37,530 nucleotides of DNA from an uncultured Clostridia bacterium (GTDB taxonomy: Bacteria > Bacillota > Clostridia > Oscillospirales > Acutalibacteraceae). The translations under genes were made by a program, and so were the position numbers. Under the pieces are notes generated by a model that saw only the letters and a program-made list of their open reading frames with translations, did no database searches and was not told the origin of the DNA. Position 1 is the stretch's first letter. Each line of letters begins with the position of its first letter. Location of the stretch: positions 1 through 37,530 of the forward strand of contig CAMFQG010000004.1 in the NCBI GenBank assembly GCA_945980035.1. The letters run 5' to 3'. Below are positions 7,446 to 37,430 of the stretch, piece by piece.

Positions 7446-7457
7446 AACAACACCTAC

Positions 7458-8054: not shown

Positions 8055-8170
8055 ACTCTCACTACTTTCAAGTTTATTATATTCAACAATTAGTTAAAAG
8101 ATAACAGCAAAGGGATAGTCTTACCCCATGCAGGTAACCGGGCATATCGTGTGCAAACGATAAACAAATA

Positions 8171-8260: not shown

Positions 8261-8261
8261 A

Positions 8262-8385: not shown

Positions 8386-8399
8386 TTTAATTCTTCATC

Positions 8400-8428
8400 A
8401 TTATAACAACATTGATATAATATGTCAA
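8400..8428 (-). promoter_or_regulatory. Consensus sigma-A promoter upstream of the Mn riboswitch
   Basis: Minus strand TTGACA - 17 nt - TATAAT. Confidence 0.85.
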
Positions 8429-8643
8429 GTATAAAAATCTCTATAATTAATGGTGGATTATTTTTGAATTTAAAAACGTAAACATTCCCTACCTTGTGTA
8501 AAAGAAGGCATTGAGGCGGTGCTGTTCTTTGGCTCCCTTTGACGAGGGAGGCATTGGTGCAGTGCTTTACTTAGGTTTCCTCAGTACTTCGTGACACCAA
8601 TGAAACCTACACTTTACCCCAACAATTAGAAAGAGCACACAAT

Positions 8644-8666
8644 AAAAAGGCTCCCATAAGGGAGCC
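8644..8666 (-). terminator. Rho-independent terminator (minus strand)
   Basis: GGCTCCC-TTAT-GGGAGCC-TTTTT on the minus strand. Confidence 0.85.
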
Positions 8667-8688
8667 TAAATATAAATTATGAAAGGAA

Positions 8689-11115: not shown

Positions 11116-11127
11116 TTATATTCCTCC

Positions 11128-12780
11128 TTAAAATGTTGTAACTAAACCACAAATATATTTTTGAATCATTGTAGCGTCTTTAATTGTAATATTGCCGTCT
11201 TTATCTGTATCTGCATAAGTTGTATCGATAGTTGTAAGCTGAGCAATATGCTTCTGGATTAATGTAGCATCCATAATGTTGATATTGCCGTCTCCGTTAA
11301 CGTCACCAAGCTTAGACTGTTCAACAGTTGTTGGCTGAGTAGTTGGCTGAGGTGAGGTTGTAGGAGCAGTAGTAGCAGTTGTAGGTGCTGTTGTTGGCTT
11401 TGTTGGAGAAGTAGTATAAGTCGGTGTTGTAACCGGTGGTAGAGTTGTATCAGGAGTTTCATCAATAACATCAACACAGTTATACTGATATGTTTTGTAA
11501 GTTGTATCATTCATACTGTTCTGAACATAAGCTTTGATTGTATAAACACCAAGCTTTGAAGGTGTGAACGTATATTTGTTATCCAATGTGTAATATGGAA
11601 TGTTATTAGCACCGTCAGGATCAGTAATAACGAACTTGTAGAATAGTAAGTTTGTACCTACAGCACCGCCGATAGCATCGTTAGTAAATGTAATTGAAGA
11701 ATTTTTCTTGATCTGTACATTTGTTCCAAGGCTGTTTGAGAAAGCTCTGATAAATGCTGACTCAAGTGTTGAAGCGTCCTTGATAACAAAGTTCATAGAA
11801 CGGCTGTTTTCGTTGCCTGCTGTATCCTTTACGTCAACTGTGATTGTGTAGTCGCCTGCAGAAGTAGGAACCCAAACAACAGATGAAGCCGCACCGTCGG
11901 ATAGAACAGTACCGTTTACGCTGAATTTGTAAGTTAAAGCACCCTCTGAAGATTTAGCAGTTGCTGTAATCTTAATACCGCAAGTTGTGTAAGAAGGTGA
12001 TTTAGTATCGGTTGTTAGACCTGTAATCTTAACAGGGCTTGAGCTGTATGGTTCCCAAGTGTCTGTCTTGTTGTTGTAGATTTGACCTGCACCCGGGAAA
12101 ACCTTATCGAGTGTTTTGACAGAACCGCCATTATTGAAAATAATGTTCTTGAATGACTTTGGTACAACATACTCAAAAACGCCATCGCCTAAATCTGTCA
12201 TTTTAACGCCCGGCCAAGAAGCATTCTTATCTTGCTCACTGTTCCACATATAACAAGTAGGATTACTCCAACCTGCGTCATTCTGTAGGTAAACAGAACC
12301 TACTCCACCTACAGGTGTAGTTGGCTTTGGTGTAGTAGCCTGTGTTGGCTGTGATGCAGATGTAGGAAGTGTAACATCGCTTGAATAATCTGACCAAGTT
12401 ACCTGGAATTTTGTGTTGTTGTTTACAGGTTTTGCAACCTTTCCGTTGCCCTCATAAGTTAAGTCGTCAGACTGCGCTTTGCCACCGGATGTACCGTCAC
12501 CAAAGATAATTTTATCATAGTTTCCGTTTACATTGTATGCCCAAATATCACCGCTGATATTTGTCATAGCCTGACCCGGCCAGTCACCGTTAGCGGGGGA
12601 ACCATCCGACCACATATAGCAGTAAACTGCCGACCAATTTGTGACAGAGTTATCAAAATAAATAACGTCACCTGCTGCGCTTGCCGCATTAACTGCAATT
12701 CCGGCAACTGCAATTGAAGATACTACTAAAATTGCAACCAGAAGCAAGCTGAGAAACTTAAAACTTTTGCCTTTCATCAT
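11128..12780 (-). CDS. Non-catalytic starch-binding dockerin protein: two CBM26-like modules, Ig-like domains, Thr/Pro linker, type I dockerin (amylosome component)
   Basis: VIYFDNSVTNWSAVYCYMWSDG..WPGQAM and VYLQNDAGWSNPTCYMWNSEQDKNASWPGVKM; TTAPTTATTAPTT linker; dockerin DVNGDGNINIMDATLIQKHI / DTDKDGNITIKDATMIQKYI. Confidence 0.88.
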   Translation of the reverse strand: MMKGKSFKFLSLLLVAILVVSSIAVAGIAVNAASAAGDVIYFDNSVTNWSAVYCYMWSDGSPANGDWPGQAMTNISGDIWAYNVNGNYDKIIFGDGTSGGKAQSDDLTYEGNGKVAKPVNNNTKFQVTWSDYSSDVTLPTSASQPTQATTPKPTTPVGGVGSVYLQNDAGWSNPTCYMWNSEQDKNASWPGVKMTDLGDGVFEYVVPKSFKNIIFNNGGSVKTLDKVFPGAGQIYNNKTDTWEPYSSSPVKITGLTTDTKSPSYTTCGIKITATAKSSEGALTYKFSVNGTVLSDGAASSVVWVPTSAGDYTITVDVKDTAGNENSRSMNFVIKDASTLESAFIRAFSNSLGTNVQIKKNSSITFTNDAIGGAVGTNLLFYKFVITDPDGANNIPYYTLDNKYTFTPSKLGVYTIKAYVQNSMNDTTYKTYQYNCVDVIDETPDTTLPPVTTPTYTTSPTKPTTAPTTATTAPTTSPQPTTQPTTVEQSKLGDVNGDGNINIMDATLIQKHIAQLTTIDTTYADTDKDGNITIKDATMIQKYICGLVTTF

Positions 12781-19268: not shown

Positions 19269-19369
19269 CCCTATTAGTATGGCAATAGTTTCTACTGTAT
19301 ATTCTAAATTTATACTTTACAACAGAAATATTGATTGCTATAATGTTTTTAACTAAAAAGGAGTTTATT

Positions 19370-20956
19370 ATGAAAAAACTTTCTTCTATACTGATTACAA
19401 TTATATTACTTGCAGCGGTTATTTCGGTACCTGTTTCGGTAAATGCTGCAGATATATCCATAAGCCAGGTATCTGCCGATACTGATTATGTTATACCTGA
19501 GGAAAATACTCTTCCCGAAAGCTACAGTTCCCTTGAATTAGGCTATTGCACAGAAGTTAAAACACAGACAAAAAATGCCTGTTGGGCGTATTCAACTATG
19601 GCAAGTCTTGAAAGCTGTTTTTTAAGGAATAACATTTTTACGGAAATACTCGATTTCAGCGAAAGTCATCTTGATTACTGGGGCAGTGTAAGAGAGGACG
19701 GTCAGGGTTGGCAAAGAGATCCATATGATGCAGGATATACCGATATTCCCATCGGCTATCTTACAAGCTGGAACGGCCCTGTTAACGAGGATAATTCCCC
19801 CACTGATTTCAGAGTAACCTCACTTGTATATCTGACAAAAAACGATATGGATAAAACAAAAGAGCTTATTATGAAAAACGGTGCCGTAACTGCTAACTTC
19901 AACACCCACAGCTTTGCCTACAGCAAGGACGCTTGCTCATACTGTCTGACAGATCCTATATCAGAAATAAACGGCCATACAGTCAGCGTTGTAGGCTGGG
20001 ACGATAACTACAGCAAAGAAAATTTCAACGGAAATTATACTCCGCAAAATAACGGAGCTTGGCTGTGCAAAAACAGTTGGGGTAATAACAACAGCATAGG
20101 CGGTTATCTTTGGATTTCATATGAGGACTACTATCTATTTAATGACCATTTCTTCGGCAACAGCTTTGGAATTAACGATTACCAAATTATTAACGAAAAT
20201 GATTATTTATATCAAAACGAGGAATATGGCGCAACCTATAACTTTGGCTATATAAACTCAGATATTATCACATACTATAATGTATTTGACTTTAGCGAAA
20301 AAGGCAACCGCCTTGATAAAGTGATTTTTGAAACTACCTCAAAGGGCGCCTCATACAAGGTTTATTACACTCCGGTAGATGATTCAGGCAAGCCTGTTGA
20401 TGATATATCAAAGAGAATTTTCCTTTGCGAAGGCACTGCTGACTACAACGGATATATCTGCTGTGACTTTGATGACATTACTCTGGCACAGGATAAGGGA
20501 GCTATTGCCGTTGAGATTGATACAACTGCTGTAAATCAAAGCTTAGAAAGTGAAGATATGCGTACGCAGAATAATATCGGCGTCAGCGAATGGTTAAGAA
20601 ACAGGGACAGCGGTAAGCTTATATTTCAGCAACAGGGTGAGTACGGAAAATCCTATGTAAGCTACAACGGAGAAGTTGTAGATGTTATGGATTTTTACAA
20701 TGATTATCTAAATGACAGTATCGGTGGTACGCTTGTAATCAAAGCATTAACAAACGAAACAGTAAATACTAAAATCCTTGGTGATGTAAATTTAGACGAA
20801 ACAGTGGATATTAATGACGCAACACTTATTCAAAGATACATTAATAAAAATGTTGTTAATCTAATGAACGACCAGCTTATTAATGCAGATTTTAACAAAG
20901 ACGGTGTGGTAAATATTAACGATGTAACCGCTATACAAAAGTATATTCTAAAATAA
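19370..20956 (+). CDS. Secreted papain-like (C1 family) cysteine protease with C-terminal type I dockerin
   Basis: ATG at 19370 follows an AAAAAGGAG RBS and signal peptide. Catalytic motifs TKNACWAYS, NGHTVSVVGWDD, CKNSWG. Dockerin DVNLDETVDINDATLIQRYI / DFNKDGVVNINDVTAIQKYI. Promoter TTTACA-17-TATAAT makes the TTG at 19331 unlikely. Confidence 0.9.
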   Translation: MKKLSSILITIILLAAVISVPVSVNAADISISQVSADTDYVIPEENTLPESYSSLELGYCTEVKTQTKNACWAYSTMASLESCFLRNNIFTEILDFSESHLDYWGSVREDGQGWQRDPYDAGYTDIPIGYLTSWNGPVNEDNSPTDFRVTSLVYLTKNDMDKTKELIMKNGAVTANFNTHSFAYSKDACSYCLTDPISEINGHTVSVVGWDDNYSKENFNGNYTPQNNGAWLCKNSWGNNNSIGGYLWISYEDYYLFNDHFFGNSFGINDYQIINENDYLYQNEEYGATYNFGYINSDIITYYNVFDFSEKGNRLDKVIFETTSKGASYKVYYTPVDDSGKPVDDISKRIFLCEGTADYNGYICCDFDDITLAQDKGAIAVEIDTTAVNQSLESEDMRTQNNIGVSEWLRNRDSGKLIFQQQGEYGKSYVSYNGEVVDVMDFYNDYLNDSIGGTLVIKALTNETVNTKILGDVNLDETVDINDATLIQRYINKNVVNLMNDQLINADFNKDGVVNINDVTAIQKYILK

Positions 20957-22921: not shown

Positions 22922-22997
22922 GCTGGTGTAGCTCAGTTGGTAGAGCAGCTGATTTGTAATCAGCAGGTCGGGGGTTCAAGTCCGTCCACCAGCTCCA
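22922..22997 (+). tRNA. tRNA-Thr(TGT)
   Basis: GCTGGTG...CACCAGC acceptor; anticodon loop TTTGTAA in CTGAT/TCAG stem; encoded CCA. Confidence 0.96.
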
Positions 22998-23049
22998 TTT
23001 TTATGTTAAGGCTTAATTTTATTAAGCCTTAACTATTAAAACTAAATAT

Positions 23050-23134
23050 GGGAGAGTTCCCGAGTGGCCAAAGGGGGCAGACTGTAAATCTGTTGCGATT
23101 CGCTTCGGTGGTTCGAATCCACCCTCTCCCACCA
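23050..23134 (+). tRNA. tRNA-Tyr(GTA)
   Basis: GGGAGAG...CTCTCCC acceptor, CAGACTGTAAATCTG anticodon arm, long variable arm, encoded CCA. Confidence 0.96.
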
Positions 23135-23183
23135 AGAAGATAAACACAGCATCCGCTGTGTTTATTTTCTTTTGTGAAAATAC

Positions 23184-23324
23184 GAGGGTGGATTCGAAAA
23201 GCCCGTATAGAAAACAGTCCTGTGGACTGTTTTTAGGGCGATGGGATTGCAGAAGCCTTTCCCTTTTACGTGAACACAGGCGGCGAGATTGAAGCTTGTG
23301 CATTGATGAACATAACCCTCTCCC
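23184..23324 (+). repeat. tRNA-Tyr-associated repeat, copy R1
   Basis: GAGGGTGGATTCGAAAAGCCCGTATAGAAAACAGTCCTGTGGACTGTTTTTAGGGCGATGGG...ATAACCCTCTCCC. Confidence 0.9.
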
Positions 23325-23381
23325 CACTAAAAACAAAACGTAATATAAAATCGCTGTGTTTATTTTCTTTTATGGGAATAA

Positions 23382-23656
23382 GAGGGTGGATTCGAAAAGC
23401 CCGTTTCGTCGTCCCAAAGTCCGCTTTGCTATAATTTTTTCAAAATTATTCTGCACGCTCCCTTGCTCCTCCTCTCCCCAAAGAGCAATTCTGCTCCTTG
23501 GGGTCCCCTCTTGGCAGTCCTGTGGACTGTTTTTAGGGCGATGGGATTGCAGAAGCCTTTCCCCTTTACGTGAACACAGGCGGCGAGATTAAAGCTTGTG
23601 CATTGATGAACATAACCCTCTCCCAAAACAGCAAAAAATGAAACGTAATACAGAGC
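23382..23656 (+). repeat. tRNA-Tyr-associated repeat, copy R2, carrying a ~110-nt hairpin-rich insert at 23405-23514
   Basis: Same core as R1 and R3. The short ATAGAAAA linker is replaced by three consecutive hairpins. Confidence 0.9.
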
Positions 23657-23670
23657 AAGGTGTAATATTT

Positions 23671-23967
23671 ATGTCGAATTGTACATCAAAAAAATATATT
23701 TTGGACTTTTCAGAATGTAAATATTTTGAGGAAATTCATCAAAAAATTCAAACGGTCTTAGAATTGCCGGATTGGTATGGACAAAATTTGGACGCTTTAT
23801 GGGATTCAATTACAGGTATTATGTATCTTCCTGCGGAAATCACTATTATTTTTCAACCGCAAACTATACAGGCATTACAGTTATCAGATGAGGTTGATAA
23901 AATAATTACTGTTTTTAAGAAAGCTGCTAATGAATTTGGTGAAATTGTTTTGAATATTGTAAAGTAA
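23671..23967 (+). CDS. Barstar-family (RNase inhibitor) protein, orphan immunity candidate
   Basis: YILDFSECKYFEEIHQKIQTVLELPDWYGQNLDALWDSITG fits the barstar pattern. ATG at 23671 preferred over the 23596 ORF start, which lies in the repeat. Confidence 0.85.
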   Translation: MSNCTSKKYILDFSECKYFEEIHQKIQTVLELPDWYGQNLDALWDSITGIMYLPAEITIIFQPQTIQALQLSDEVDKIITVFKKAANEFGEIVLNIVK

Positions 23968-24012
23968 CAAATTTGACAAATCAAATTAACTACACCCTAT
24001 GGAGGTAAAAAA

Positions 24013-24261
24013 ATGAAGATGATGGATTGTGTTGAGATAATCGTTGAAAAGGAAAAATATGCCAAAAACGGCGTTCATAAGGGTATGCAGGGGTGGATTT
24101 GCTTAGACGATTGTACTGATGGATATTGGTTGGTAAATTTTCCCCAATGCGGTGAAAAAGATGATATTGCAGAAATCAGTATAAATGAAAAAGATATGAT
24201 AACAATCTCTGCTATAGATGCTGAAATAAACGAAAAAATAAAAGAAATGTTTGGTGAGTAA
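24013..24261 (+). CDS. Small 82-aa putative immunity-type protein
   Basis: MKMMDCVEIIVEKEKYAKNGVHKGMQGWICLDDCTDGYWLVNFPQCGEKDDIAEISI; RBS TATGGAGG; directly downstream of barstar. Confidence 0.65.
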   Translation: MKMMDCVEIIVEKEKYAKNGVHKGMQGWICLDDCTDGYWLVNFPQCGEKDDIAEISINEKDMITISAIDAEINEKIKEMFGE

Positions 24262-24380
24262 CATTAAGCTAATATATTCAGTGACATATTAAGTGCTTTT
24301 AACAAATATTTATTTTTATTTTCTTTGGTTCGAAACTACCATAAAAATCAGAAATAACATCTTTTTTGCTCAACCCTTAC

Positions 24381-24420
24381 AACGAAACGAGTACATCACA
24401 CGATGTACTCGTTTCGTTTT
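24381..24420 (+). terminator. Strong Rho-independent terminator after the immunity pair
   Basis: 17-bp perfect stem AACGAAACGAGTACATC-ACAC-GATGTACTCGTTTCGTT-TT. Confidence 0.9.
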
Positions 24421-24430
24421 GTGGGAATAA

Positions 24431-24600
24431 GAGGGTGGATTCGAAAAGCCCGTATAGAAAACAGTCCTGTGGACTGTTTTTAGGGCGATGGGATTGCAGA
24501 AGCCTTTCCCCTTTACGTGAACACAGGCGGCGAGATTAAAGCTTGTGCATTGATGAGCATAACCCTCTCCCAAAACAGCAAAAAATGAAATGTAATACAG
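24431..24600 (+). repeat. tRNA-Tyr-associated repeat, copy R3
   Basis: Near-identical core to R1 and R2. Right flank AAAACAGCAAAAAATGAAATGTAATACAGAG shared with R2. Confidence 0.9.
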
Positions 24601-24724
24601 AGAGCGATATAGAGAAAAGGGCGGTAAAAGCACATTGCTTTTCAAATTAATTCACAAAAATTATCATAATTGCAATAGCAGAAAATAATACGCATTAACA
24701 TCAGAAATTATTATTTATTGAAAA

Positions 24725-24770
24725 GTTTGCACTAAAGTACATTGTGAAAGAGAAACAAAACTATTAAAAT
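24725..24770 (+). promoter_or_regulatory. Regulon box A + -10
   Basis: GTTTGCACTAAAGTAC - 24 nt - TAAAAT. Confidence 0.8.
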
Positions 24771-24837
24771 TATGTTGGGAATAATTAGGGCTTGTGTGAA
24801 ATAAAAATCGAGGAATTATCTGTTTAAGGAGGATTTT

Positions 24838-25845
24838 ATGGGATTATTTGATAAAAAGTATTGTGATGTATGCGGAGAAAAAATTGGTTTACTCGGAAAC
24901 AGAAAGCTTGAGGACGGAAATCTTTGCAAGAATTGTGCAAAGAAACTCTCTCCTTTTTTCAACGAGCGAAGATCATCAACGGTTGATGAAATAAAACAAC
25001 AGCTTGCATATCGTGAAGAAAATAAAAGACAGCTTGCTTGCTTCAACCCGACACGAACATTAGGCACTGACGAAAAGGTATATGTTGATGAAATTAACCG
25101 CAGGTTTATCGTCACCTCATCATCAAACTGGAGAGAGCAGAATCCTGATATTATCGAAATATCTCAGGTTACAAGCTGTAATGTAGATGTCAGAGAAGAC
25201 AGAGATGAAATTATGCATACAGACAATCAGGGTAATGAGGTCAGTTACAATCCCCCCAGATATAAGTATGAATACATATTTAATGTTGAGATAACCGTAA
25301 ATTCTCCTTGGTTTAGTGAAATTAGTTTTGAACTTACAGATTACGGAAACCGTCCTGACAGCAGATATACTGATATTTACCGTGAATATGAGCGTCAGGC
25401 TGATGAACTTAAGAGATTGTTAATGCCTGCTGTGTATGGGAATCAGCAGTTTAACGGTCAGAATTTTCAGCAGAATAATCAGTCTAACTGTCAGATGCCT
25501 TATTGCGAACAGCATAATGTTTATCAGGGACAGGTTTATCAACAACCTCAGCAAGGGTATCAACAGCAGATGGGTATAATCAATCCCGGTATATCAAAGC
25601 AGTATGAAAACAGAAGTATTGGTATGACATGGGTGTGTCCTTCCTGCACAACGCACAATACCGGAAAGTTTTGTTCAAACTGCGGTTATTCACAGACGAA
25701 TCAACAGCCTGTGTCAAACAACAGCAATACAGGTGTACATTCATACAGATGTGATAAATGCGGTTGGATACCCAACGACACACAGAACATTCCTAAATTC
25801 TGTCCGCAGTGCGGTGATGTTTTTGATTTTAATGATGTAAAATAA
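24838..25845 (+). CDS. DUF4428-like zinc-ribbon protein with Gln-rich linker and two C-terminal zinc ribbons
   Basis: CDVCGEKIGLLGNRKLEDGNLCKNCAKKLSPFF; CPSCTTHNTGKFCSNCG; CDKCGWIPNDTQNIPKFCPQCG. Confidence 0.8.
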   Translation: MGLFDKKYCDVCGEKIGLLGNRKLEDGNLCKNCAKKLSPFFNERRSSTVDEIKQQLAYREENKRQLACFNPTRTLGTDEKVYVDEINRRFIVTSSSNWREQNPDIIEISQVTSCNVDVREDRDEIMHTDNQGNEVSYNPPRYKYEYIFNVEITVNSPWFSEISFELTDYGNRPDSRYTDIYREYERQADELKRLLMPAVYGNQQFNGQNFQQNNQSNCQMPYCEQHNVYQGQVYQQPQQGYQQQMGIINPGISKQYENRSIGMTWVCPSCTTHNTGKFCSNCGYSQTNQQPVSNNSNTGVHSYRCDKCGWIPNDTQNIPKFCPQCGDVFDFNDVK

Positions 25846-25847
25846 TA

Positions 25848-26327
25848 ATGAGATTAGTTGTTAAGAATATAATTATTATGTGCTTATTTTCAGTTGTATT
25901 TTCATTGTTTGGTTGTTCGCCTCAGCCTGCAAAAACCGTTTCGGAAATTTCTTCAATCTCAATTACGCAAAACCATATGAACAGGGCATATTGCTATGCC
26001 TTCTCGGCATATGAAGATGATTATAAATATATTTTTAATGCATGGTGTTTTTTAAAAGACGGTGAAAATAGTTCAAAAGAGGTTGATATTCAAAATATCG
26101 AGATAACCAAAGCTGAGTTTTCTGAGTTTGCAAGGCTTAATGAAAAATACGGTTTTGCAGATTACACCAAATGGAATAATAACAAGAAATATAATATTTC
26201 TGACAAAACAACAAACAGCTTCAAGGTGTGCTTTGGCGGCGAAACATTAACGCTGAAAACAGACAATGAGTGCTATGATGCAGTTTATGATTATTTTATA
26301 ACCCTTACAACTAAATACCTTGTTTAG
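25848..26327 (+). CDS. Putative lipoprotein, unknown function
   Basis: Lipobox SLFGC after a hydrophobic signal; begins 2 nt after the upstream stop. Confidence 0.75.
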   Translation: MRLVVKNIIIMCLFSVVFSLFGCSPQPAKTVSEISSISITQNHMNRAYCYAFSAYEDDYKYIFNAWCFLKDGENSSKEVDIQNIEITKAEFSEFARLNEKYGFADYTKWNNNKKYNISDKTTNSFKVCFGGETLTLKTDNECYDAVYDYFITLTTKYLV

Positions 26328-26342
26328 AGATGAAATAATAGT

Positions 26343-26837
26343 ATGTTAAGTTTTTTTAAAAAAATGGATATGAATGAAGAGGACGGCGGAGTTGTACAAA
26401 GAGTCAATACTAATGCTCCGAAAATTATTAAGTCCAAGCAGATAATTATTTTTGAATGTAAATTTTCAACCCTGGCGTTTTTAGATTCGGATGAAGAAAT
26501 AGGAAATCGTGTTTACATATTGGAAGCAAGGCTTGAAAATGAATTTGTGAATGGCAGATATCGCCATCGTTCTCGTTTCGAAAATAATGTAGATGTTAAA
26601 TTTAAAGCAGAGAAATCTTTTATGGAGTGTTTGCAAAGAATAATTGAGGGGCATAATCTTGCAAAAAATAACGGTGTATGCGTTAATGTTAAGGGATTGC
26701 CTGATATGTATGGAGCAAAGTTAATGGTGGATTATGCTTCCGGTGAAAGAATCTATACATCGAATAATCAAGATAATTTCCTTTCCGTAAATGTTATGAA
26801 AGCGATGCTTAGGCTGTTTCGTACACAATTATCATAA
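26343..26837 (+). CDS. Hypothetical cytosolic protein
   Basis: Same operon and strand, short spacing, followed by a terminator. Confidence 0.65.
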   Translation: MLSFFKKMDMNEEDGGVVQRVNTNAPKIIKSKQIIIFECKFSTLAFLDSDEEIGNRVYILEARLENEFVNGRYRHRSRFENNVDVKFKAEKSFMECLQRIIEGHNLAKNNGVCVNVKGLPDMYGAKLMVDYASGERIYTSNNQDNFLSVNVMKAMLRLFRTQLS

Positions 26838-26843
26838 TGAAAG

Positions 26844-26871
26844 ATGTCGCTCTTTTGGGGCGACATTTTTT
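26844..26871 (+). terminator. Rho-independent terminator
   Basis: ATGTCGC...GCGACAT followed by a T-run. Confidence 0.8.
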
Positions 26872-26953
26872 ATAATTATTAATTCCTATGCAAATATAAG
26901 AGGATTGAAATTTGACTTTAATGTGATAAAAATATTTAAGAAGAAAGCGAGGT

Positions 26954-28621
26954 GTGGCTGTGACTAAGATTAACCGAAAAAATGTAATATATGCGATTGG
27001 TGTTGCTGCGTTGCTTGTAATTGCATATTATTCCCGTGCATTCCATACTCAGGTAGATGAACCTGTCCTTAAAATGCTTTTGGTAATGATTAGAAGCGTT
27101 ATTCAGATTTCCCTTGTTATCGGGTGGTGCTCGTCTGTCGGAACAAGAATTATCAATAAACAGGTTAGACATTACCTCATAGCGGTTGGCATATTGCTGG
27201 CGTTTTGGCTTATTTTGAGAACCTGCAAATGGGAGTTTATTGCCCAAAACGGCACACATTTAGGGCGTTACCTATGGTATGCCTATTATATCCCCATGGT
27301 GTTTGTCCCTCTTTTGGGTGTGTTCATTATCGACCATATCGGTAAGGCTGAAAACTATAAAACGCCACGCTATATGAAATATCTATATATACCTGCAGTA
27401 CTGCTTGTGCTTTCGGTATTTACAAATGACTTGCATCAGTGTGTTTTTTCCTTTCCAAACGGAATTGAATACGGCGAATCCGATTATAATTATCAGGCGT
27501 TGTATTTCATAGCGATGGCTTGGTTTATCCTTCTGGGTATTTACTTTGTGGTAATGCTGATAAAAAAGAGCCGAGTACCCGGAAGCAAGAGCTTTCAAAA
27601 GCTCCCTGCAGTAATTCTGGGGATTTCCATAATCTTTTGGGTGTTGTATTGTATGCAGATAGTGAGCGGTGATTTGGCGGCCATTGACTGCATAATGATT
27701 ATTTCCCTTTTGGAAAGTGCAATTCAAAGCGGTCTTATTCCCTCCAATACAAGTTATAACGAACTGTTCCGCAGTTCAACGGTATCCGCACAGATTGTTG
27801 ATACCAATTATCAGCCCTTTATGGTTTCAGGTACGGCAACAGCACTAACTGAGGATGTGATGAAAAGTGCCAAATCCGAACCTGTTGACTTGGGAGATAC
27901 AATACTGCACAGCAAAACAATTACAGGCGGTTATGTTCTTTGGCAGGACGATGTAAAACAAATTAAAGAGCTCATAGAGGAACTTCGTTACACCCGGGAA
28001 AGACTGGGAGAAAACAACGAATTGCTGAGAGCGGAGCTGGAATTGAAAGAAAACCGTGCCAGGACGGAAGAAAAAAGCCGTTTATATGACCGAATTGCCA
28101 AAGAAGTCGCACCTCAGCTTGCGAAAGCAGAAGAATTGTTGGATCTTGCAGAGTGTGAACCGGAGCAAGTGAAAAGCGTAATTTCAAAAATTTCCGTAAT
28201 TTGTGCGTACATAAAGCGTCGAGGTAATCTCCTTTTGCTTCAAGAGGAAAGCAATATAATCCCTGCAAGGGAACTTGAATACTGTATCAGGGAGTCCCTT
28301 GATAATTTACGGCTTGGGGACATTTTTACATCCTTTGACAGTAAATGTGACGGAGAACTTAAGTTGGAATACGCAGTGGTTGCTTTTGATTTTTATGAAA
28401 ATATCATCGAAAGACTGCTTGACGATGCAACCGCTATGCTGATACATCTTGACAGCAAGGGCGGGATTATAAAAATGCGGTTACAGATAGGATGCAACGA
28501 AGATATTGCCGAGCATACATTGTCAGAGCTGTCTGTACCCTGCGGAAATTTTGAGTGGGATATTCAAGACGAGGATGTCACCGTTACTTTGCTTATTTCA
28601 GAGGGAGGTGGCGACAAATGA
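26954..28621 (+). CDS. 7TM sensor protein with coiled-coil and apparently degenerate histidine-kinase-like C-terminus
   Basis: Seven hydrophobic segments, then ELKENRARTEEKSRLYDRIAKEVAPQLAKAEELL. No clear N/G-box ATPase motifs by eye. Confidence 0.75.
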   Translation: MAVTKINRKNVIYAIGVAALLVIAYYSRAFHTQVDEPVLKMLLVMIRSVIQISLVIGWCSSVGTRIINKQVRHYLIAVGILLAFWLILRTCKWEFIAQNGTHLGRYLWYAYYIPMVFVPLLGVFIIDHIGKAENYKTPRYMKYLYIPAVLLVLSVFTNDLHQCVFSFPNGIEYGESDYNYQALYFIAMAWFILLGIYFVVMLIKKSRVPGSKSFQKLPAVILGISIIFWVLYCMQIVSGDLAAIDCIMIISLLESAIQSGLIPSNTSYNELFRSSTVSAQIVDTNYQPFMVSGTATALTEDVMKSAKSEPVDLGDTILHSKTITGGYVLWQDDVKQIKELIEELRYTRERLGENNELLRAELELKENRARTEEKSRLYDRIAKEVAPQLAKAEELLDLAECEPEQVKSVISKISVICAYIKRRGNLLLLQEESNIIPARELEYCIRESLDNLRLGDIFTSFDSKCDGELKLEYAVVAFDFYENIIERLLDDATAMLIHLDSKGGIIKMRLQIGCNEDIAEHTLSELSVPCGNFEWDIQDEDVTVTLLISEGGGDK

Positions 28622-29901
28622 TAGGCTTTTGTGATTTGCATTATGCAGTAAAGTCAATCTTTCTTGTAGTAACATTTGTTGCGGTTTGTTCAAGCATCTG
28701 CCTGTTGCCTCGTGTTTTCAGCAGAAAAAAGCTGATGCCGAAGCTACTTGTTCCCCTTTGCTTTTTGCTCAGCGGAGCAATGCTGATTTTGTTTGCAGCT
28801 CAGGTAAAATCGGCTCATCCCTCTTGGCATATATCTCCGATTATAGAGAGTGTTACAGAATTGCCGGTAATACTTCCGATTTTACTACTGCTTGCTGTCA
28901 TTACTACGCTTTTGACGATTGTGATTAAGGAAATAAAATTTGAAAAGAACTCAATTACCCGTTCATCAGTTAAGGAAAGTCTTGATTCTCTTAACACCGG
29001 TCTTTGCTTTGCCTACAAAAACGGTATGGTAATGCTTATAAATCACCGAATGAACAATTTGAGCCACACAATATTCGGCAGAAATTTACAGAATGTCAAT
29101 GCTTTTTGGGAAAACTTGAGTAACGGTGAAATACAGTCAGGTGTAACAAGGCTGTCTATGGGGGCAAATCCGTCTTTGCGTTTGCCTGATGAAAGGGTGT
29201 GGACTTTCTCCCGTAAAGTGATTGACGGTATTACCCAGCTCACAGCGGCAGAAACAACAAAGCTTAATAAACTTACGGAAGAACTGAAAGAAAAGAACGC
29301 AGAGCTTACTGTTATGAATGAACGTCTGCGTAAGTACGGCGAGAATGTAGATAAGCTTACACGTGAAAAAGAGCGTTTGGAAACAAAAGTCCGTATTCAC
29401 CGAGAGCTTGGGCAGGCGTTGCTTTTGACGCGTCGATATTTACAGGTAGACAGTGATAATACTCAGGAACTGCTTAATATTTTGAAGCGTAACATAGCAA
29501 TGCTCCGTTTGGAATCGGAAAGCCTGAAAAATGACGAGCCACTAATAATGCTTATGAAAGCCGCACACTCCGCCGGAATTGAAGTGCTTATCACCGGACA
29601 GACGCCTAAGCAGGAAGATGCAAACCGACTGTTTTTTGAAGCTGCTACAGAAGCCCTTACCAATGCAGTGCGACACGCCGATGCAAAAAAGCTTTGTGTT
29701 GAGTTGACGGAAGATGACAAAGCATATTTCGTTTATTTTACTAATGACGGCAGTAAGCCACAGAATAAAATTGTAGAGGGTGGCGGTCTTGGCTCTCTCA
29801 GACTAAAAACAGAACAAATCGGCGGGACAATGGAAGTGCTGTATCAACCGGAATTTGTCCTGAAAATAACCGTTCCAAAGAAAAGAGGTGACGTCCTATG
29901 A
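28618..29901 (+). CDS. Membrane sensor histidine kinase (HisKA_3/HATPase, NarX/LiaS-like)
   Basis: ATG overlaps the upstream stop (ATGA) with GGAGGTGG RBS. H-box VRIHRELGQALLLTRR, N-box ATEALTNAVRHADA, G-box GGGLGSLRLKTEQIGG. Confidence 0.87.
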   Translation: MIGFCDLHYAVKSIFLVVTFVAVCSSICLLPRVFSRKKLMPKLLVPLCFLLSGAMLILFAAQVKSAHPSWHISPIIESVTELPVILPILLLLAVITTLLTIVIKEIKFEKNSITRSSVKESLDSLNTGLCFAYKNGMVMLINHRMNNLSHTIFGRNLQNVNAFWENLSNGEIQSGVTRLSMGANPSLRLPDERVWTFSRKVIDGITQLTAAETTKLNKLTEELKEKNAELTVMNERLRKYGENVDKLTREKERLETKVRIHRELGQALLLTRRYLQVDSDNTQELLNILKRNIAMLRLESESLKNDEPLIMLMKAAHSAGIEVLITGQTPKQEDANRLFFEAATEALTNAVRHADAKKLCVELTEDDKAYFVYFTNDGSKPQNKIVEGGGLGSLRLKTEQIGGTMEVLYQPEFVLKITVPKKRGDVL

Positions 29902-30521
29902 TAAATGTGCTTATTGTTGAAGATGATCCTATGGCAAGGCAGCTTCTTGAAATATACATAAACACAAGCGAAAAGTATAACCACATTCAGTCCGTAGAAA
30001 GTGCGGCGCTGGCGGAGTTTTGCTGTCGAACAAATAAAGTAGATGTTGTTTTGATGGATGTCTGTACGGCTATGAACGCAAGTGGTCTTGACGCTGCCGA
30101 AAAAATCAAAAAGAGCTTTCCTGACACAAAGGTCATTATTATAACCAGCCAGCCTGAGTGCAGTTTTATTGACAGAGCGCACAAAGTGGGCGTTGACAGC
30201 TTTTGGTACAAAAGCTCCGCAGCAGAAGAAATACTGTCTGTTTTGGATCGCACAATGGCGGGAGAACAGGTGTATCCGGAATCCGCCCCATCCCTTAAGC
30301 TGGGAAATACATTTAGTGAAAATCTTACCGACCGTGAGCTTGAGGTTCTGCGGGAATTAGTGGCAGGTGAGTCGGATGCCGCTATTGCAGAAAAACTGTT
30401 TATGTCTTTGCGGACAGTAAAAGGGCATATTCAGAGTATGAGGGAAAAAACAGGGTTCAGAAACCGCACAGAGCTTGCTGTCCGAGCAAGAGAAAGCGGC
30501 TTGATAATTAACAATAAATAA
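29898..30521 (+). CDS. LuxR/NarL-family response regulator
   Basis: Receiver VLIVEDDPMARQLL, VVLMDVCTAM, WYKSS; HTH LTDRELEVLRELVAGESDAAIAEKLFMSLRTVKGHIQSMREKTGFRNRTEL. Confidence 0.93.
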   Translation: MINVLIVEDDPMARQLLEIYINTSEKYNHIQSVESAALAEFCCRTNKVDVVLMDVCTAMNASGLDAAEKIKKSFPDTKVIIITSQPECSFIDRAHKVGVDSFWYKSSAAEEILSVLDRTMAGEQVYPESAPSLKLGNTFSENLTDRELEVLRELVAGESDAAIAEKLFMSLRTVKGHIQSMREKTGFRNRTELAVRARESGLIINNK

Positions 30522-30538
30522 TCAATATTCACACATAA

Positions 30539-30567
30539 AGTGTCGTCTGAAAAGACGGCACTATTTT
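30539..30567 (+). terminator. Rho-independent terminator of the sensor operon
   Basis: AGTGTCGTCT-GAAA-AGACGGCACT-ATTTTCTTT. Confidence 0.85.
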
Positions 30568-30580
30568 CTTTCAATGAAAA

Positions 30581-30626
30581 GTTTGCACTAAAGTACGATG
30601 TGCAAGTATAGAGGAAGTTATATAAT
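30581..30626 (+). promoter_or_regulatory. Regulon box B + -10
   Basis: GTTTGCACTAAAGTAC - 24 nt - TATAAT. Confidence 0.85.
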
Positions 30627-30699
30627 GATGTTGGGGCAAGGAGATATTTGCCCTTAACCGATACTACATATTGTATAAAAAAGTTGAAAGGAGTTACTT

Positions 30700-33282
30700 A
30701 TGAAAAAGGTTATTTCATTATTCCTGTCGTTAATGATGCTTTTTAGCGTTATGATAGGACACACAATTACTGCGCATGCAGAAGATCAAATCACTACAAT
30801 CGAAGTTAATAGCGTACAAGCACCATATATCGGTGCAACTATCAAAGATTTGTGTTTCTTCTCCGTTCCCGAATGGGCGGATTATAGCGGATACAGCAGC
30901 GATTTTACTAAGTGTATGCTTTGGTTCGATTTGGATTCCGCAAATCCTGATAAAGCACTTCCTGTAGATGCCGTTTGCGTAGAGGGACACCAATATAGTG
31001 TGTCTGTAAGATTAATTACTAATACAGGTTGTAGTTTTGCATCATCACCAAAGGCGTATCTTAACAGCAAAGCTGCTTCCACAAGTTCATATCTCGGTAG
31101 AAACCCAAGTGTTTGTCTTGCAGTGGATTATACCTTCCCTAAATTAACAAAGGAACGTATTGACAATGTAAATGCTTTCTTTGAGTTTGGGGAATTTACT
31201 AAGGGCGTTACTGTAAATGGCACTTCCACCCTTGTTAATGGTAATATGGTAAATACTGTTACAACCGGTTGGTTCCACAATGGTACGGCTGTGCAGGTGG
31301 ATACAACAGTTACATATGGTAACTGGGGATTTGTAATAGGTATGGTTGCGTCTGATTCTTACTATTTTGATGAATCCTCCACCATTACTATTGATGGCAA
31401 GAAGTTGAATCCGACAAATATTTTTTCAAACGGTAAGGCTGCGTTCTTCCGTTCGGCAGATGATTTCTTCACCGTTCCATGCACTCATAACTATTCATCA
31501 AGTTGGTCATATGACAGCACTACTCACTGGAAACAATGTTCCATTTGCAACGACAAGGGCGAATTAAATGCTCATACTTACGGTGCAGGTATAACAGAGG
31601 GTGATGTTACAACATATACATGCTCAGAATGTGGATACAAAAAAGTTGACAAATATATCGAAAACGGTTTCCGTTATGCTGATGTTGACGGCGGTGTTCA
31701 GGTGGTTACATATAAAGGAAACGATGTAAACGTAAATGTTCCTGATGTTTTAGGCGGTAAAAAGGTTGTCAGCATAGGCGACTATGCATTTGCCACGGCA
31801 AAAAACAAAGCCTCTATCAAGAGTATCACACTTCCATCTACCGTTACCTCTATCGGTAAAAATGCCTTTAATGGCTGTACTGCACTGACAAGCGTAAATA
31901 TTCCTTCAGGTGTAACAAGAATTGAAAATGAAACTTTCTTTGGTTGCGAAAGCTTGGGAAATATTGCTATTCCATACGGTGTTACTTTCATAGGAACCAG
32001 CGCTTTCCAAGGCTGCGGAATTTCTTCCGTTGTTATTCCTTGTAGCGTAAATACAATCAAATCACGGGCTTTCCGTGGATGTAACAATCTCGGCAGTGTT
32101 GTTGTTCCGGATTCTGTTACAACCCTTGAAACCGGTGCCTTTATCAGTTGTAAAGAACTGAAAACAGCAGTTATCGGAGACAGAGTTACAATAATTCCTG
32201 ATTCCGTTTTTGATGCCAGCAACGCATTGGAAAGCCTTACACTTCCTGCCGGTTTAACCTCTATCGGCAAATATAATCTTGATAATAAATCAAACTTTAC
32301 TAAGATTTATTTCAGAGGTACACAGGCACAGTGGAATGCAGTTAAAATTGGAACTTATAATACTAACTCTGCTACTGTCGAATATAATTACACAACAAAA
32401 ACAGATGTTGGACAGCATAAGTACAGTAAGTTAACTACAATTGCTCCCACCTGCATAGATGAAGGCTATACGCTAAATGTCTGCGAGGGTTGCTCAGACA
32501 GCTTCAAGACAGATATAACAGCAGCTACAGGTATTCATTCCTATAACAGCGGTGTGTTTACAAAAGAGGTAACCTGCACAGAAGACGGTGAAAAGGTACA
32601 TTCCTGTAATGTCTGCGGTGATAGTTACTCCGAAACAGTAGAGAAAACAGGTCACAAAACTGCTGCAACAACAACACCGGCAACTACTACTGAAGACGGA
32701 AAAATTGTTGAGGCTTGTACAATCTGTGATGAAATCATTTCCACCACAGATATTCCAAAGATTTCAAAAGTTTGGCTTTCTACAACATTCTACACATATA
32801 AAGGCAAGGTTAGAACTCCAAGCGTAACGGCTACAGACAGCGAGATGAAGTCACTTATAAAGAATACCGACTATACTGTTGAACGCGCAAGTGGCAGAAA
32901 GAATGTAGGCAAGTACGCAATAAAGGTTACATTTATGGGTAATTACAGCGGTACACAGACACTGTATTTCACAATCGCGCCTAAGACAAGTGCCATTTCA
33001 AAAGTGAAAGCAAAATCGAAAGGCTTCACATTTAAGTGGAAGAAGCAGAACACGCAAACAACAGGCTATGAAATTCAGTATAGTAAATCAAGTAAATTTA
33101 AAAAAGCTATAACAGAAACAATAAGCAAGAATGCTAAAAGATCCAAAACCGTTTCTAATCTTAAAGCACAGAAAAAGTATTATATTCATGTTCGCACCTA
33201 CAAGACGGTAAAGATTGACGGCGTAGCTACGAAAATTTACTCATCCTGGAGCAAGTCAAAAGAAGTAAAAACAAAGAAATAA
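30700..33282 (+). CDS. Secreted BspA-like LRR surface protein with CxxC repeats and C-terminal Fn3-like domain
   Basis: Signal peptide; LRR_5 repeats (AFNGCTALTSVNIPSGVTRIENETFFGCESL); repeated CSxCxxKGE / CNVCGDSYSETVEKTGH motifs; GYEIQYSKSSKFKKA. Confidence 0.85.
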   Translation: MKKVISLFLSLMMLFSVMIGHTITAHAEDQITTIEVNSVQAPYIGATIKDLCFFSVPEWADYSGYSSDFTKCMLWFDLDSANPDKALPVDAVCVEGHQYSVSVRLITNTGCSFASSPKAYLNSKAASTSSYLGRNPSVCLAVDYTFPKLTKERIDNVNAFFEFGEFTKGVTVNGTSTLVNGNMVNTVTTGWFHNGTAVQVDTTVTYGNWGFVIGMVASDSYYFDESSTITIDGKKLNPTNIFSNGKAAFFRSADDFFTVPCTHNYSSSWSYDSTTHWKQCSICNDKGELNAHTYGAGITEGDVTTYTCSECGYKKVDKYIENGFRYADVDGGVQVVTYKGNDVNVNVPDVLGGKKVVSIGDYAFATAKNKASIKSITLPSTVTSIGKNAFNGCTALTSVNIPSGVTRIENETFFGCESLGNIAIPYGVTFIGTSAFQGCGISSVVIPCSVNTIKSRAFRGCNNLGSVVVPDSVTTLETGAFISCKELKTAVIGDRVTIIPDSVFDASNALESLTLPAGLTSIGKYNLDNKSNFTKIYFRGTQAQWNAVKIGTYNTNSATVEYNYTTKTDVGQHKYSKLTTIAPTCIDEGYTLNVCEGCSDSFKTDITAATGIHSYNSGVFTKEVTCTEDGEKVHSCNVCGDSYSETVEKTGHKTAATTTPATTTEDGKIVEACTICDEIISTTDIPKISKVWLSTTFYTYKGKVRTPSVTATDSEMKSLIKNTDYTVERASGRKNVGKYAIKVTFMGNYSGTQTLYFTIAPKTSAISKVKAKSKGFTFKWKKQNTQTTGYEIQYSKSSKFKKAITETISKNAKRSKTVSNLKAQKKYYIHVRTYKTVKIDGVATKIYSSWSKSKEVKTKK

Positions 33283-33304
33283 CAGTACATTTTTTTACAA
33301 CAAG

Positions 33305-33335
33305 ACGGTAGTGGAATTTCCGCTACCGTTTTCTT
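33305..33335 (+). terminator. Rho-independent terminator
   Basis: ACGGTAG-TGGAATTTCCG-CTACCGT-TTTCTT. Confidence 0.8.
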
Positions 33336-33527
33336 ATTTGATAGTAAACTTCAAATAATTGACAAATTTGTCAGTAATCGGAAAATGATTTTATGTTACC
33401 GTTAATTCATCTTATCATCCTATCAAACAAAAAATAATTTATATTGCCCGCTCAGTTGCGCCCTGCGTGCGCACGAGCGATGGCTAAAGAAAGCGCACGC
33501 ATATGGTGCGCTTTCTTGTGTCGTAAT

Positions 33528-33573
33528 GTTTGCACTAAAGTACGATGTTTTGGACTATATAAATCTGTATAAT
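33528..33573 (+). promoter_or_regulatory. Regulon box C + -10
   Basis: GTTTGCACTAAAGTAC - 24 nt - TATAAT. Confidence 0.85.
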
Positions 33574-33608
33574 AAAATGTGTAAAGTTATCGAAAGGAGA
33601 TAAAATTT

Positions 33609-34496
33609 ATGGGATTAGGAGGTTTCTTTAAGAACACTTTTGGAAAAAAGACCTGTACTTTTTGTAACGGCGAGTGCGGAATGTTAAACCGAACAAAAAT
33701 CAAAGGCGATGAATACATATGCGGAAATTGTGACGATATGTGTTCATTCCATATTCAGAAATACAGATTTACAAAGGACGAGTTAAGAGGGCATATGGAG
33801 TATATGAAACGCTCCGATCGTATCTACAAAGAGGTTGCCTTAAACGGTGCAAGATCAGAGAGATACCCTTCGGCTACCGCAAGACAAGGCATAGAGTTCT
33901 TTGATGATATCGGAATGTTCCGCATCATAGACGGCTCAAAGGATAACAACGAAAAATACCCCAAGGAGCTTTTCCGTTATGACCAGGTGGCAAATTATGA
34001 GCCGTATATGGAAGAATCCGAAGAAACGGATTCAAACGGAAAAACTAAAAAAGTGTTTGGTGAGGGCGGTATAAAAATCACTTTGGTTGGTGGCAGAGAT
34101 GATACAACAACTATGAGAAAAGGACTGCGTGCACACCCTTATATAACCGAAGAAATTACTGTATGCTTTGCAACAAACGACAGAGAAAAAGAAAATTATC
34201 TCAGATATGTGGATAATGCAATACATCACTTCAACTATATTTTCGGAGTTAATGACGACACAAACGGATTATTCAGCTTTGGTATGAATAAAAAAGAAAA
34301 GCGTGATTTAATGGGTGCGATTGGTTTTGCAAAAACTGCAGTTGATGCTGTAAAGGTTGCAAAAGACGGCGGAGAATTAACTGACGAAAAGAAAGCAGAA
34401 ATTCAGGCAAATATGAACGCAATGGACGACGCTCAAACCGGCGGACTTGCAGAATACACAAGACGTGCTGACGCGGCGGAATCAAAAATTAACTAA
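33609..34496 (+). CDS. DUF4428-like zinc-ribbon protein
   Basis: CTFCNGECGMLNRTKIKGDEYICGNCDDMCSFH; AAAGGAGAT RBS. Confidence 0.75.
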   Translation: MGLGGFFKNTFGKKTCTFCNGECGMLNRTKIKGDEYICGNCDDMCSFHIQKYRFTKDELRGHMEYMKRSDRIYKEVALNGARSERYPSATARQGIEFFDDIGMFRIIDGSKDNNEKYPKELFRYDQVANYEPYMEESEETDSNGKTKKVFGEGGIKITLVGGRDDTTTMRKGLRAHPYITEEITVCFATNDREKENYLRYVDNAIHHFNYIFGVNDDTNGLFSFGMNKKEKRDLMGAIGFAKTAVDAVKVAKDGGELTDEKKAEIQANMNAMDDAQTGGLAEYTRRADAAESKIN

Positions 34497-34510
34497 GGAG
34501 GATTTATACC

Positions 34511-35038
34511 ATGAAAAAGTTTTTAACAGTTTTACTGGCAGGAATTATGCTCTTATCCCTTGTTGCTTGTGACGGTGGCGGTAAGGCAGTAACAATTACA
34601 CAAGTTTGCGATGATGACGATACTATGAGTGCAACAGTTACAGTTGGATATAAAGACGGAACCACTCCCTCTGAAACAAACTCAGATGAGGCTGAACTTA
34701 TAAACGAAGAAAAGGATTTTTCTGTAGAGTTTTATTTGTATTTTGATAACGGTCTTGATTACTTTGTAGATGATGCCAAAGAGAAAAAAACCTATAAAGA
34801 AGTAAAATATTCAGGATTTGACGGTTATATGTATCAGTATGATGATTACGAGTATGAAATTTGCCTATATCTTGACGAAAAAGATGATTACGATGTTTAT
34901 CTTTTCGCTTATGTGGCACCGAATAGCGAACTCATTGATACAGAAACAACCGATATGGAAGCACTGTTCAATCAGGAGGATGTACAGAACATTTTAAATT
35001 CTGTTAAATACGAAGGCATAGTAAATAGTTCTAAATAA
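34511..35038 (+). CDS. Putative lipoprotein, unknown function
   Basis: MKKFLTVLLAGIMLLSLVACDGGG lipobox; AAGGAGG RBS. Confidence 0.8.
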   Translation: MKKFLTVLLAGIMLLSLVACDGGGKAVTITQVCDDDDTMSATVTVGYKDGTTPSETNSDEAELINEEKDFSVEFYLYFDNGLDYFVDDAKEKKTYKEVKYSGFDGYMYQYDDYEYEICLYLDEKDDYDVYLFAYVAPNSELIDTETTDMEALFNQEDVQNILNSVKYEGIVNSSK

Positions 35039-35174
35039 ATCGGATATATAATGCTTACTGAATAAACTGCAATACGCTGTTGCCCTCTTGTAAAATCACC
35101 GAAAATTGAACATTTTTTATTAACTCATAAGTGTTTTGCAGTAATCGGTGAAATAGTTATTCGGGAGGCTTTGA

Positions 35175-35825
35175 ATGGAAATAATTGTCTTTTTGACGTC
35201 GGTCTTTTTGATGTTTGTATGTATTGCTGTTTTCTGTTATTTAGATTGCAAGTCAAAGGAAAATCCGAGATATACAGGTATGCCCGACCCGGAGTATATT
35301 CGCAAACAGAAGACTGTTAATCAGGTTAATATGGTGTATGGCACAGACAAATTTCCCATAACCCTTTATAAGCCGGATGATGCCTACTTTACTATTCCAC
35401 CCGGTATTGCCCTTAATGCAGGAGAAAGAGTATGGCTTCGGGCGAATGATTCGTCTTGGAGTGCAGAGGTTTTTGGTGTGGTATGTTTTGAGAATAGTTT
35501 AGAAAGCGAAGCTTTCGTGGAGTATTACTATAAGGGTGAGTTGAGCAATTCTGATGAAGAGCTTGAATATTTCCGTCAGGAAGTAACTGACCTTGGTATT
35601 ACATATACGAACAAACCCGTGAAGCACATTAAAAGCACATATAAAAAATCAAATAAAAAAAAGACATACCGGGCGTGTTTTGTCGGATTTGAATTTGACA
35701 ATACAAGCAACGGTGTCCCCTTTGGCAGAGGTCTTATGGGATTTAAAATATACAGTATCAAAAAAGAAATTTCAGCAGGTTACATCAAAGGTTTGTTTTG
35801 CGAGCTGTTCAATCCCGAAAGATAA
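35175..35825 (+). CDS. Hypothetical single-TM anchored protein
   Basis: N-terminal TM IIVFLTSVFLMFVCIAVFCYL; RBS GGGAGG. Confidence 0.65.
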   Translation: MEIIVFLTSVFLMFVCIAVFCYLDCKSKENPRYTGMPDPEYIRKQKTVNQVNMVYGTDKFPITLYKPDDAYFTIPPGIALNAGERVWLRANDSSWSAEVFGVVCFENSLESEAFVEYYYKGELSNSDEELEYFRQEVTDLGITYTNKPVKHIKSTYKKSNKKKTYRACFVGFEFDNTSNGVPFGRGLMGFKIYSIKKEISAGYIKGLFCELFNPER

Positions 35826-35869
35826 TTTGTAAGGAAGTTATTTATAAATAACACACAGGAGGTTTAGTT

Positions 35870-36307
35870 ATGAACTATATTGGAAAATGGGTTTTTGATT
35901 CTATAGGAACGCATGATGATGAAAAAGGTATGATTTACTTAAACGCTGATGAATATCTTGCATCACCTATGCCCTATATTGATGAAACTGATGAAGAAGC
36001 AGTTGCCGATGAAATGGACGAAAGAAAGAAAACTATCGGTATGCAGGTGAAAATTTGTGATGACGGCAAACTGTATTTTCTTATGCCTGTGCCTGACGGA
36101 GTATCAGAAGCAGAGCTTAAAGAGGTGATAAACACGGGAGAGCTTATGCTTATTGACGATATGCTCACCGATAAAGCAATAGCTTGGGAAGAAAGAGACG
36201 GCGAGCTTTGGTATGATACCGGTATAGGAGACGATTCGTGGACAAAGGCAATAGATGAAAACGGTTTTTTCACATTTATAACAATGAGATTTAAAAAGAT
36301 TGATTAA
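35870..36307 (+). CDS. Hypothetical acidic protein
   Basis: RBS AGGAGG; ORF MNYIGKWVFDSIGTHDDEKGMIYL... Confidence 0.65.
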   Translation: MNYIGKWVFDSIGTHDDEKGMIYLNADEYLASPMPYIDETDEEAVADEMDERKKTIGMQVKICDDGKLYFLMPVPDGVSEAELKEVINTGELMLIDDMLTDKAIAWEERDGELWYDTGIGDDSWTKAIDENGFFTFITMRFKKID

Positions 36308-36320
36308 CGGAGGTTTTGTT

Positions 36321-36920
36321 ATGGGAATTTTTGATTCGCTAATGAAAGCAGCAGAAAACACCATTAAAAAAGAGGCTACAAAAGCAGTAACCGGTGCGGC
36401 TCAATCCATAGGAAAGGGTAAAAATCGTTCTGAACGCTTTACCTTTTCTTCTCTGCCGACAAGCTTGAGTGAACTGCAGGCTCTGCCCGAAGCAACGCTT
36501 GACTCACCGTTCAAAACAGCGGCCTTAACTCTTGCTGTACTTTGCAGATATGAAGAGGATTGTAATGCAACATTTGAAATGCTTGATTTTCTCAAAGGGC
36601 CTGAAAATGTAAGTACATACGAAAAGCAGTTTATCAAAGAACGGCTTGAAGATAAATTCTATAAGCCTTTCTCGTTTTTTAACGGTGCAACTCCCGAAAA
36701 CGGATACAAGCCATCAACACCATATACCATAGCCATATACGAAAACCCATACTCGTTTGACAATGAAAATTGGGCAACTCTCTGGGTTAAAAGCGGTGGC
36801 GGTGATAATATGAGGTCTATAAAGCTTCGCAAAAAGCCCTCTACCGGTCAATGGTTTTTAAACGAAATTCAATGTCTTTCCGATATAAGAGTGCCTGCAA
36901 GCGAAGATCCCTGGGCGTAA
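36321..36920 (+). CDS. Hypothetical protein, DUF6935-like
   Basis: RBS CGGAGG, ATG at 36321. FTFSSLPTSLSELQALPEATLDSPFKTAALTLAVLCRYEED resembles DUF6935 from memory; family call unverified. Confidence 0.6.
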   Translation: MGIFDSLMKAAENTIKKEATKAVTGAAQSIGKGKNRSERFTFSSLPTSLSELQALPEATLDSPFKTAALTLAVLCRYEEDCNATFEMLDFLKGPENVSTYEKQFIKERLEDKFYKPFSFFNGATPENGYKPSTPYTIAIYENPYSFDNENWATLWVKSGGGDNMRSIKLRKKPSTGQWFLNEIQCLSDIRVPASEDPWA

Positions 36921-36974
36921 CTAAAAAGTATGCTGGCGAAAGTTTTTTGACGGTAGCATAAAGTTTACCTGAAA

Positions 36975-37019
36975 GTTTGCACTTAAATACGATGTGTGGA
37001 CTGTATAAATCTGTATAAA
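36975..37019 (+). promoter_or_regulatory. Regulon box D + -10
   Basis: GTTTGCACTTAAATAC - 23 nt - TATAAA. Confidence 0.75.
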
Positions 37020-37043: not shown

Positions 37044-37430
37044 ATGAAAAACATCGTCGTCTGTATCGGAAACGGTCTGCTATCCGAAGCAATCATTAAT
37101 ATGCTGAAAAACAGTGGCGAATTTAACCCTTTTCGAGTTCTGATTCAGAAAAAGAACAATATCGCAAATGAATGTGAAGCCCTATCTGCCGACATCCTCT
37201 TGATGGATGTGTCTTATGCTTCCGGCACGACTATGGAGACACGATTAAACGAAGTAAAGCAAGTAAGAGAAAAAACTCCCACCTGTAAACTCGTAATGCT
37301 GTGCGATGAAAATTCAGCACCCGAAATTGCCCGTGAGGTAGCCAATGCGAAAAAGGACGGGCTTATCGACGCTTTCTTTTATTCATCTGTAACCGAAAAA
37401 TATTTGACGGCTGTTCTGTCCTCCATTTAG
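37044..37430 (+). CDS. Stand-alone degenerate response-regulator receiver domain, no output domain
   Basis: ADILLMDVSYASG and LIDAFFYSSVTEKYLTAVL align with VDVVLMDVCTAMN and VDSFWYKSSAAEEILSVL of the LuxR-family regulator. N-terminal acidic pair and conserved Lys absent. Confidence 0.7.
   Translation: MKNIVVCIGNGLLSEAIINMLKNSGEFNPFRVLIQKKNNIANECEALSADILLMDVSYASGTTMETRLNEVKQVREKTPTCKLVMLCDENSAPEIAREVANAKKDGLIDAFFYSSVTEKYLTAVLSSI

Follow-up and report, generated by a model that had tools for sequence, protein, structure and literature searches.

The open reading frame at 37044..37430 of the forward strand, close to the right end of the 37,530-nt stretch analysed here (the window), raises the question of what a stand-alone receiver deprived of its output domain and of most of its catalytic residues can do downstream of a box that also precedes the genes of a complete signalling cassette. 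The earlier note on this DNA had taken the product for a degenerate receiver resembling that of the LuxR-type regulator encoded at 29898, and had proposed that it may act as a feedback protein or as a phosphate sink. The window is contig C4 of a 1.80-Mb assembly, the closest named relatives of which are MAGs assigned to Oscillospiraceae and Ruminococcus. The frame is complete, running from an ATG at 37044 to a TAG that ends at 37430, 100 nt short of the end of the window; it encodes 128 amino acids and has upstream the ribosome-binding-site-like AAGGAG. The contig ends (1-40 and 37510-37530) resemble transposase-adapter remnants (CTGTCTCTTATACAC on the right, SSTSRGLGDVYKRQ as read on the left), and the outermost bases are probably not genomic.

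The protein has neither a Pfam match nor an output domain, Pfam and NCBIfam hold no family for it, PF00072 (Response_reg) was matched by none of 18 searched members of the group at E<=1, and a sequence profile search of the PDB retrieved marginal receivers only. Structure prediction, the check that had been suggested for the proposed fold, returned a receiver: from a 12-sequence alignment AlphaFold2 built a clean (beta-alpha)5 model with a pLDDT of 90.5 and a pTM of 0.87, whose five alternating strands and helices follow the canonical order of the CheY-like fold, and among the top Foldseek matches listed against the PDB nearly all were receivers, including DivK, PhoB, NarL and the FrzS receiver. 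Atypical receivers such as that of FrzS and the CheY-like domains of TadZ/CpaE are among these closest folds at 11-14% identity, a likeness at the level of the fold, and they sit in larger proteins with other partners, unlike the bare receiver described here. The resemblance to the LuxR receiver was borne out as well, by BLASTP (27% over 82 aa, E = 9e-6) and by the profile of the receiver family, which picks up the 29898 receiver in the same genome with E = 1.2e-6. The NarL/LuxR-type receivers of the same cassette are thus the closest sequence kin found beyond the family, but they keep their catalytic positions and are joined to a DNA-binding domain.

Alignment with the 29898 receiver places G9-N10 at the acidic pair, C87 at the Thr/Ser position and S114 at the Lys position, with the phospho-acceptor D55 kept; the losses already read from the sequence are therefore correct and extend to the Thr/Ser residue. 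The set of features that marks a functional phospho-receiver (acidic pair, acceptor Asp, Thr/Ser, Lys and a PF00072 match) is not complete in this protein. Among 43 relatives, positions 9-10 are Q/G/K/R followed mostly by Asn, position 87 is Cys or Val and position 114 is Ser, Gly or Ala, so that throughout the main family four of the five catalytic positions are gone and position 55 is the sole acidic one, either D or E. Asp occupies it in 15 of these relatives, Glu in 27 and Gly in one; four Asp/Glu changes are needed on the tree, at least three of them forced by well supported branches. The best-conserved region of the family is the alpha4-beta5-alpha5 stretch (K103-L121), and Cys44 and Cys81 are near-invariant, C87 being present in about half of the members.

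These data bear directly on the idea of a phosphate sink or competing receiver, in which D55 would take phosphate from HK2, the histidine kinase of the cassette, and drain the signal. The persistence of D55 and of the LLMDVS strand here and in near relatives is what such a role would demand, but the main family lacks the Lys, the Thr/Ser residue and the Mg-binding acidic pair throughout. Osp of Rhodobacter sphaeroides, a receiver in which the Asp of beta3 is retained but neither acidic pair nor Lys is present, does not become phosphorylated, and its D51N variant still works (PMC9430884). Given that more members have Glu than Asp at the acceptor position, with no fewer than three switches, draining phosphate is unlikely to be a function that the family shares, and this part of the earlier proposal is rejected; for the present protein, too, we regard it as very improbable.

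A receiver without its chemistry might also be a relic, a duplicate decaying without function. The missing catalytic residues would agree with this, and one decayed copy is indeed known: in G343 (L115:6441-11223), where HK1 has been truncated, the receiver's first ~91 residues continue in frame into a large S-layer-type surface protein, a decayed or fused arrangement. On the other hand, the dN/dS of the receiver against its relatives is 0.05-0.12, close to the 0.05-0.08 of the LuxR regulator, its conservation and linkage span many genera and the box in front of it is conserved. We therefore find the relic explanation hardly credible: the codon-level comparison indicates that the gene is under strong purifying selection and that its product is a maintained protein whose phosphorylation chemistry has been lost, which is in turn what makes a sink unlikely as a shared role.

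The company in which the gene is kept is well defined. HK1 (26954..28621, forward strand, like the other genes and the boxes of this cluster) is a seven-transmembrane sensor of histidine-kinase ancestry, with a HisKA_7TM match just below the cutoff; an alignment of 16 homologues shows a common 7TM region and a C-terminal part in which neither an H-box His nor ATP-binding motifs are conserved. HK2 (28615..29901), a membrane histidine kinase of the UhpB/NarQ-like type, has His262 in 62 of 62 sequences, Asn350 in 61 of them and a conserved Gly390-Gly391. The LuxR-type response regulator (29898..30521) retains its catalytic residues, with D9, D54, T83 and K105 in 36/36 sequences, whereas the pocket of the stand-alone receiver is degenerate in all 43 relatives. 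Since HK1 is itself degenerate, the cassette comes down to a pseudokinase, a kinase, a regulator and, as its putative fourth component, the pseudo-receiver.

With a cutoff of E<=0.001 the receiver profile matched 27 of 396 genomes sampled from the order. The weak matches include LuxR regulators, and clear carriers (E<1e-9) number 21, about 5% of those sampled. HK1 was found in 19 of these 21 against 20 of the 375 others (Fisher p = 1e-19); the two carriers in which it was not seen, G421 and G469, are represented by assemblies that are 85% and 88% complete. The order HK1-HK2-LuxR-receiver recurs across carrier neighbourhoods, at least one cassette gene lying within ~1.5 kb of the receiver in 16 of the 21 carriers (among them G343, with its decayed HK1, and G318, with divergent transcription) and on the same contig within ~10 kb in two more, this window included. 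Two genomes, G305 (L117, L118) and G189 (L111-L113), have two or three receivers each, and at L118 the cassette was not seen in the stretch read. Roughly half of the HK1-bearing genomes show no detectable receiver, so the receiver is an optional addition that the system does not need. Our literature searches retrieved no described case from Ruminococcus or other clostridia, and the proteins probably form an undescribed receiver family of gut clostridia that has no Pfam entry.

The link between the receiver gene and the cassette extends to their promoters. Four copies of one 25-nt repeat (D3, starting at 24722, 30578, 33525 and 36972) lie in the cluster: box A (24722..24746) precedes the gene run at 24838-30521 with both kinases and the regulator, box B (30578..30602) the gene of a secreted BspA-type protein with LRR_5 and fn3 domains (30700..33282), box C (33525..33549) the run at 33609..36920, which encodes a DUF4428 protein, a lipoprotein-like protein, two unknowns and a DUF6935 protein, and box D (36972..36996) the receiver gene. 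The box D previously noted in front of this gene is thus a genuine fourth copy, though the weakest, with ACTTAAAT in place of ACTAAAGT; two close relatives carry a perfect box at the same place. The core GTTTGCACTWAARTAC occurs without mismatch at exactly four sites in the 1.80-Mb genome, all in this cluster, and matches with two mismatches stay at background (9 extra versus 11 for the reversed control). One-mismatch boxes common to G000:C81 and G008:C107 were set aside, as they lie inside surface-protein coding sequence. The regulon seems limited to its own 12-kb cluster (24722-36996), with the BspA-type LRR protein and the DUF4428/DUF6935 proteins among its putative targets. Further to the left, the window contains three copies of a ~200-nt repeat (23146-24595), with a Barstar gene between, near tRNA-Thr and tRNA-Tyr (22922-23134). 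As read from translations, it also encodes several secreted proteins with dockerin-like C-termini (1873-12780 and 19331-20956; amylases, starch-binding-like proteins and a cysteine protease), a set reminiscent of the Ruminococcus bromii amylosome.

The inner imperfect dyad of the box, GCACT-AA-AGTAC, is followed after 24 nt by TAAAAT (box A) or TATAAT (boxes B and C), and at box D the distance from GCACTTAAATAC to the -10-like TATAAA is 23 nt. With this spacing the centre of the box falls near -41.5, the usual position for a class II activator. Scanning for sigma-70 promoters turned up no classical one at the receiver gene, as is to be expected if the promoter is activator-dependent and has no -35 element. 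The arrangement recurs in other families: the only two perfect boxes of G122 stand before the HK1 operon and before the receiver, and the sole perfect box of G416, from a third family, precedes the receiver, in each case with 24-nt spacing. One box, at 23-24 nt from the -10-like hexamer, thus precedes both the operon of the cassette and the gene of the receiver, and three families have it in front of the latter. Outside this clade a relaxed search gave no significant box for most of the distant members, the exceptions being L009 and L041 with a variant (GTACTTAGG[T/G]AC), again at 24 nt. From the linkage and the type of site we infer that the LuxR regulator is the binder of the box, and the position of the site would make it an activator.

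Together, the predicted fold, the lost chemistry, purifying selection, linkage to the cassette and a box-promoter geometry that is conserved in two other families give good support to that part of the earlier interpretation in which a degenerate receiver under control of the regulon feeds back on it. The anatomy is that of two known proteins, to which we liken the family by their published descriptions, without claiming that they share an ancestor. In Sinorhizobium and Caulobacter FixT, a bare receiver, inhibits autophosphorylation of the kinase FixL and does not do so as a competing receiver (PMC7078487); it is induced by FixLJ and acts without being phosphorylated. The Caulobacter protein uses four Cys to bind Fe-S and is subject to clearance by Lon, whereas the family described here has no four-Cys motif, its near-invariant cysteines being C44 and C81. 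Osp, which is induced by CtrA, binds the transmitter of the hybrid kinase CckA and so inhibits its autophosphorylation (PMC9430884). Like the protein described here, Osp is a single receiver domain without acidic pair and Lys; its gene is induced, from a conserved promoter site, by the regulator of the very system that it inhibits, an arrangement that may hold here too. The two cases differ in that Osp is alphaproteobacterial and acts on a hybrid kinase with ChpT/CtrA, and in that osp has as neighbours a hypothetical gene and one of the TetR family, its kinase being encoded elsewhere; here the receiver stands beside a cassette from Bacillota whose regulator is of the LuxR type, known from sequence.

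Osp and FixT are dead receivers that are induced by their own systems and act on the kinase, and we therefore favour, with moderate confidence, a negative feedback exerted on the side of the kinase: HK2 would phosphorylate the regulator, which would bind box D, centred near -41.5, as an activator and would induce the pseudo-receiver; this in turn would dock through its receiver-like surface, most likely on the HK2 transmitter and possibly on an HK1-HK2 complex, and lower kinase output, as FixT does with FixL and Osp with CckA, in a manner independent of its own phosphorylation. The sign of the effect is taken from the precedents, which suggest inhibition. The kinase seems a likelier target than the regulator, both by these precedents and by a weak signal of co-divergence, in which the divergence of the receiver follows that of HK1 (r 0.75) and HK2 (r 0.66) better than that of the LuxR receiver (r 0.57), with small differences between the values and a control for length that is only partial.

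The main rival, which we hold to be possible with a distinctly lower probability, is a decoy, anti-activator or co-activator that would form a pair with the LuxR receiver and prevent or adjust the binding of the regulator dimer to DNA. That the nearest relatives outside the family are the LuxR receivers of the cassette suggests that it arose by duplication and has kept a surface for dimerisation, and the conservation maximum at K103-L121 would suit such pairing. Co-divergence with LuxR is nevertheless the weakest among the partners tested, and we know of no precedent for a bare pseudo-receiver acting in this way on a LuxR-type regulator. The top co-divergence value belongs to the C-terminal part of HK1, and this can also be read in favour of a positive connector or stabiliser, independent of phosphorylation, that would serve HK1-HK2 as a scaffold or pass a signal to some other output such as the DUF4428/DUF6935 proteins, DUF6935 genes being neighbours in several genomes. 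We found no precedent for it, and neighbours outside the cassette vary; we consider this connector unlikely.

As far as the databases and literature searched go, kinase-side feedback by the pseudo-receiver would be a device of known kind in an undescribed family, in another phylum and another cassette than the precedents. More tentatively, the family could represent a widespread, undescribed set of dead receivers in this clostridial order that serves as the feedback branch of a module of four parts with a cluster-confined regulon and acts on the pseudokinase-kinase complex, not on phosphotransfer. The cassette is small and self-contained, with two sensors, one regulator and few promoters, and it is therefore tractable for testing feedback. 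In the literature that we found, feedback inhibition of kinases by dead receivers has been shown in alphaproteobacteria only (FixT, Osp); another such case, in gut clostridia and linked to its cassette both genetically and through a conserved box, would, if true, suggest that receivers have been recruited repeatedly as kinase inhibitors.
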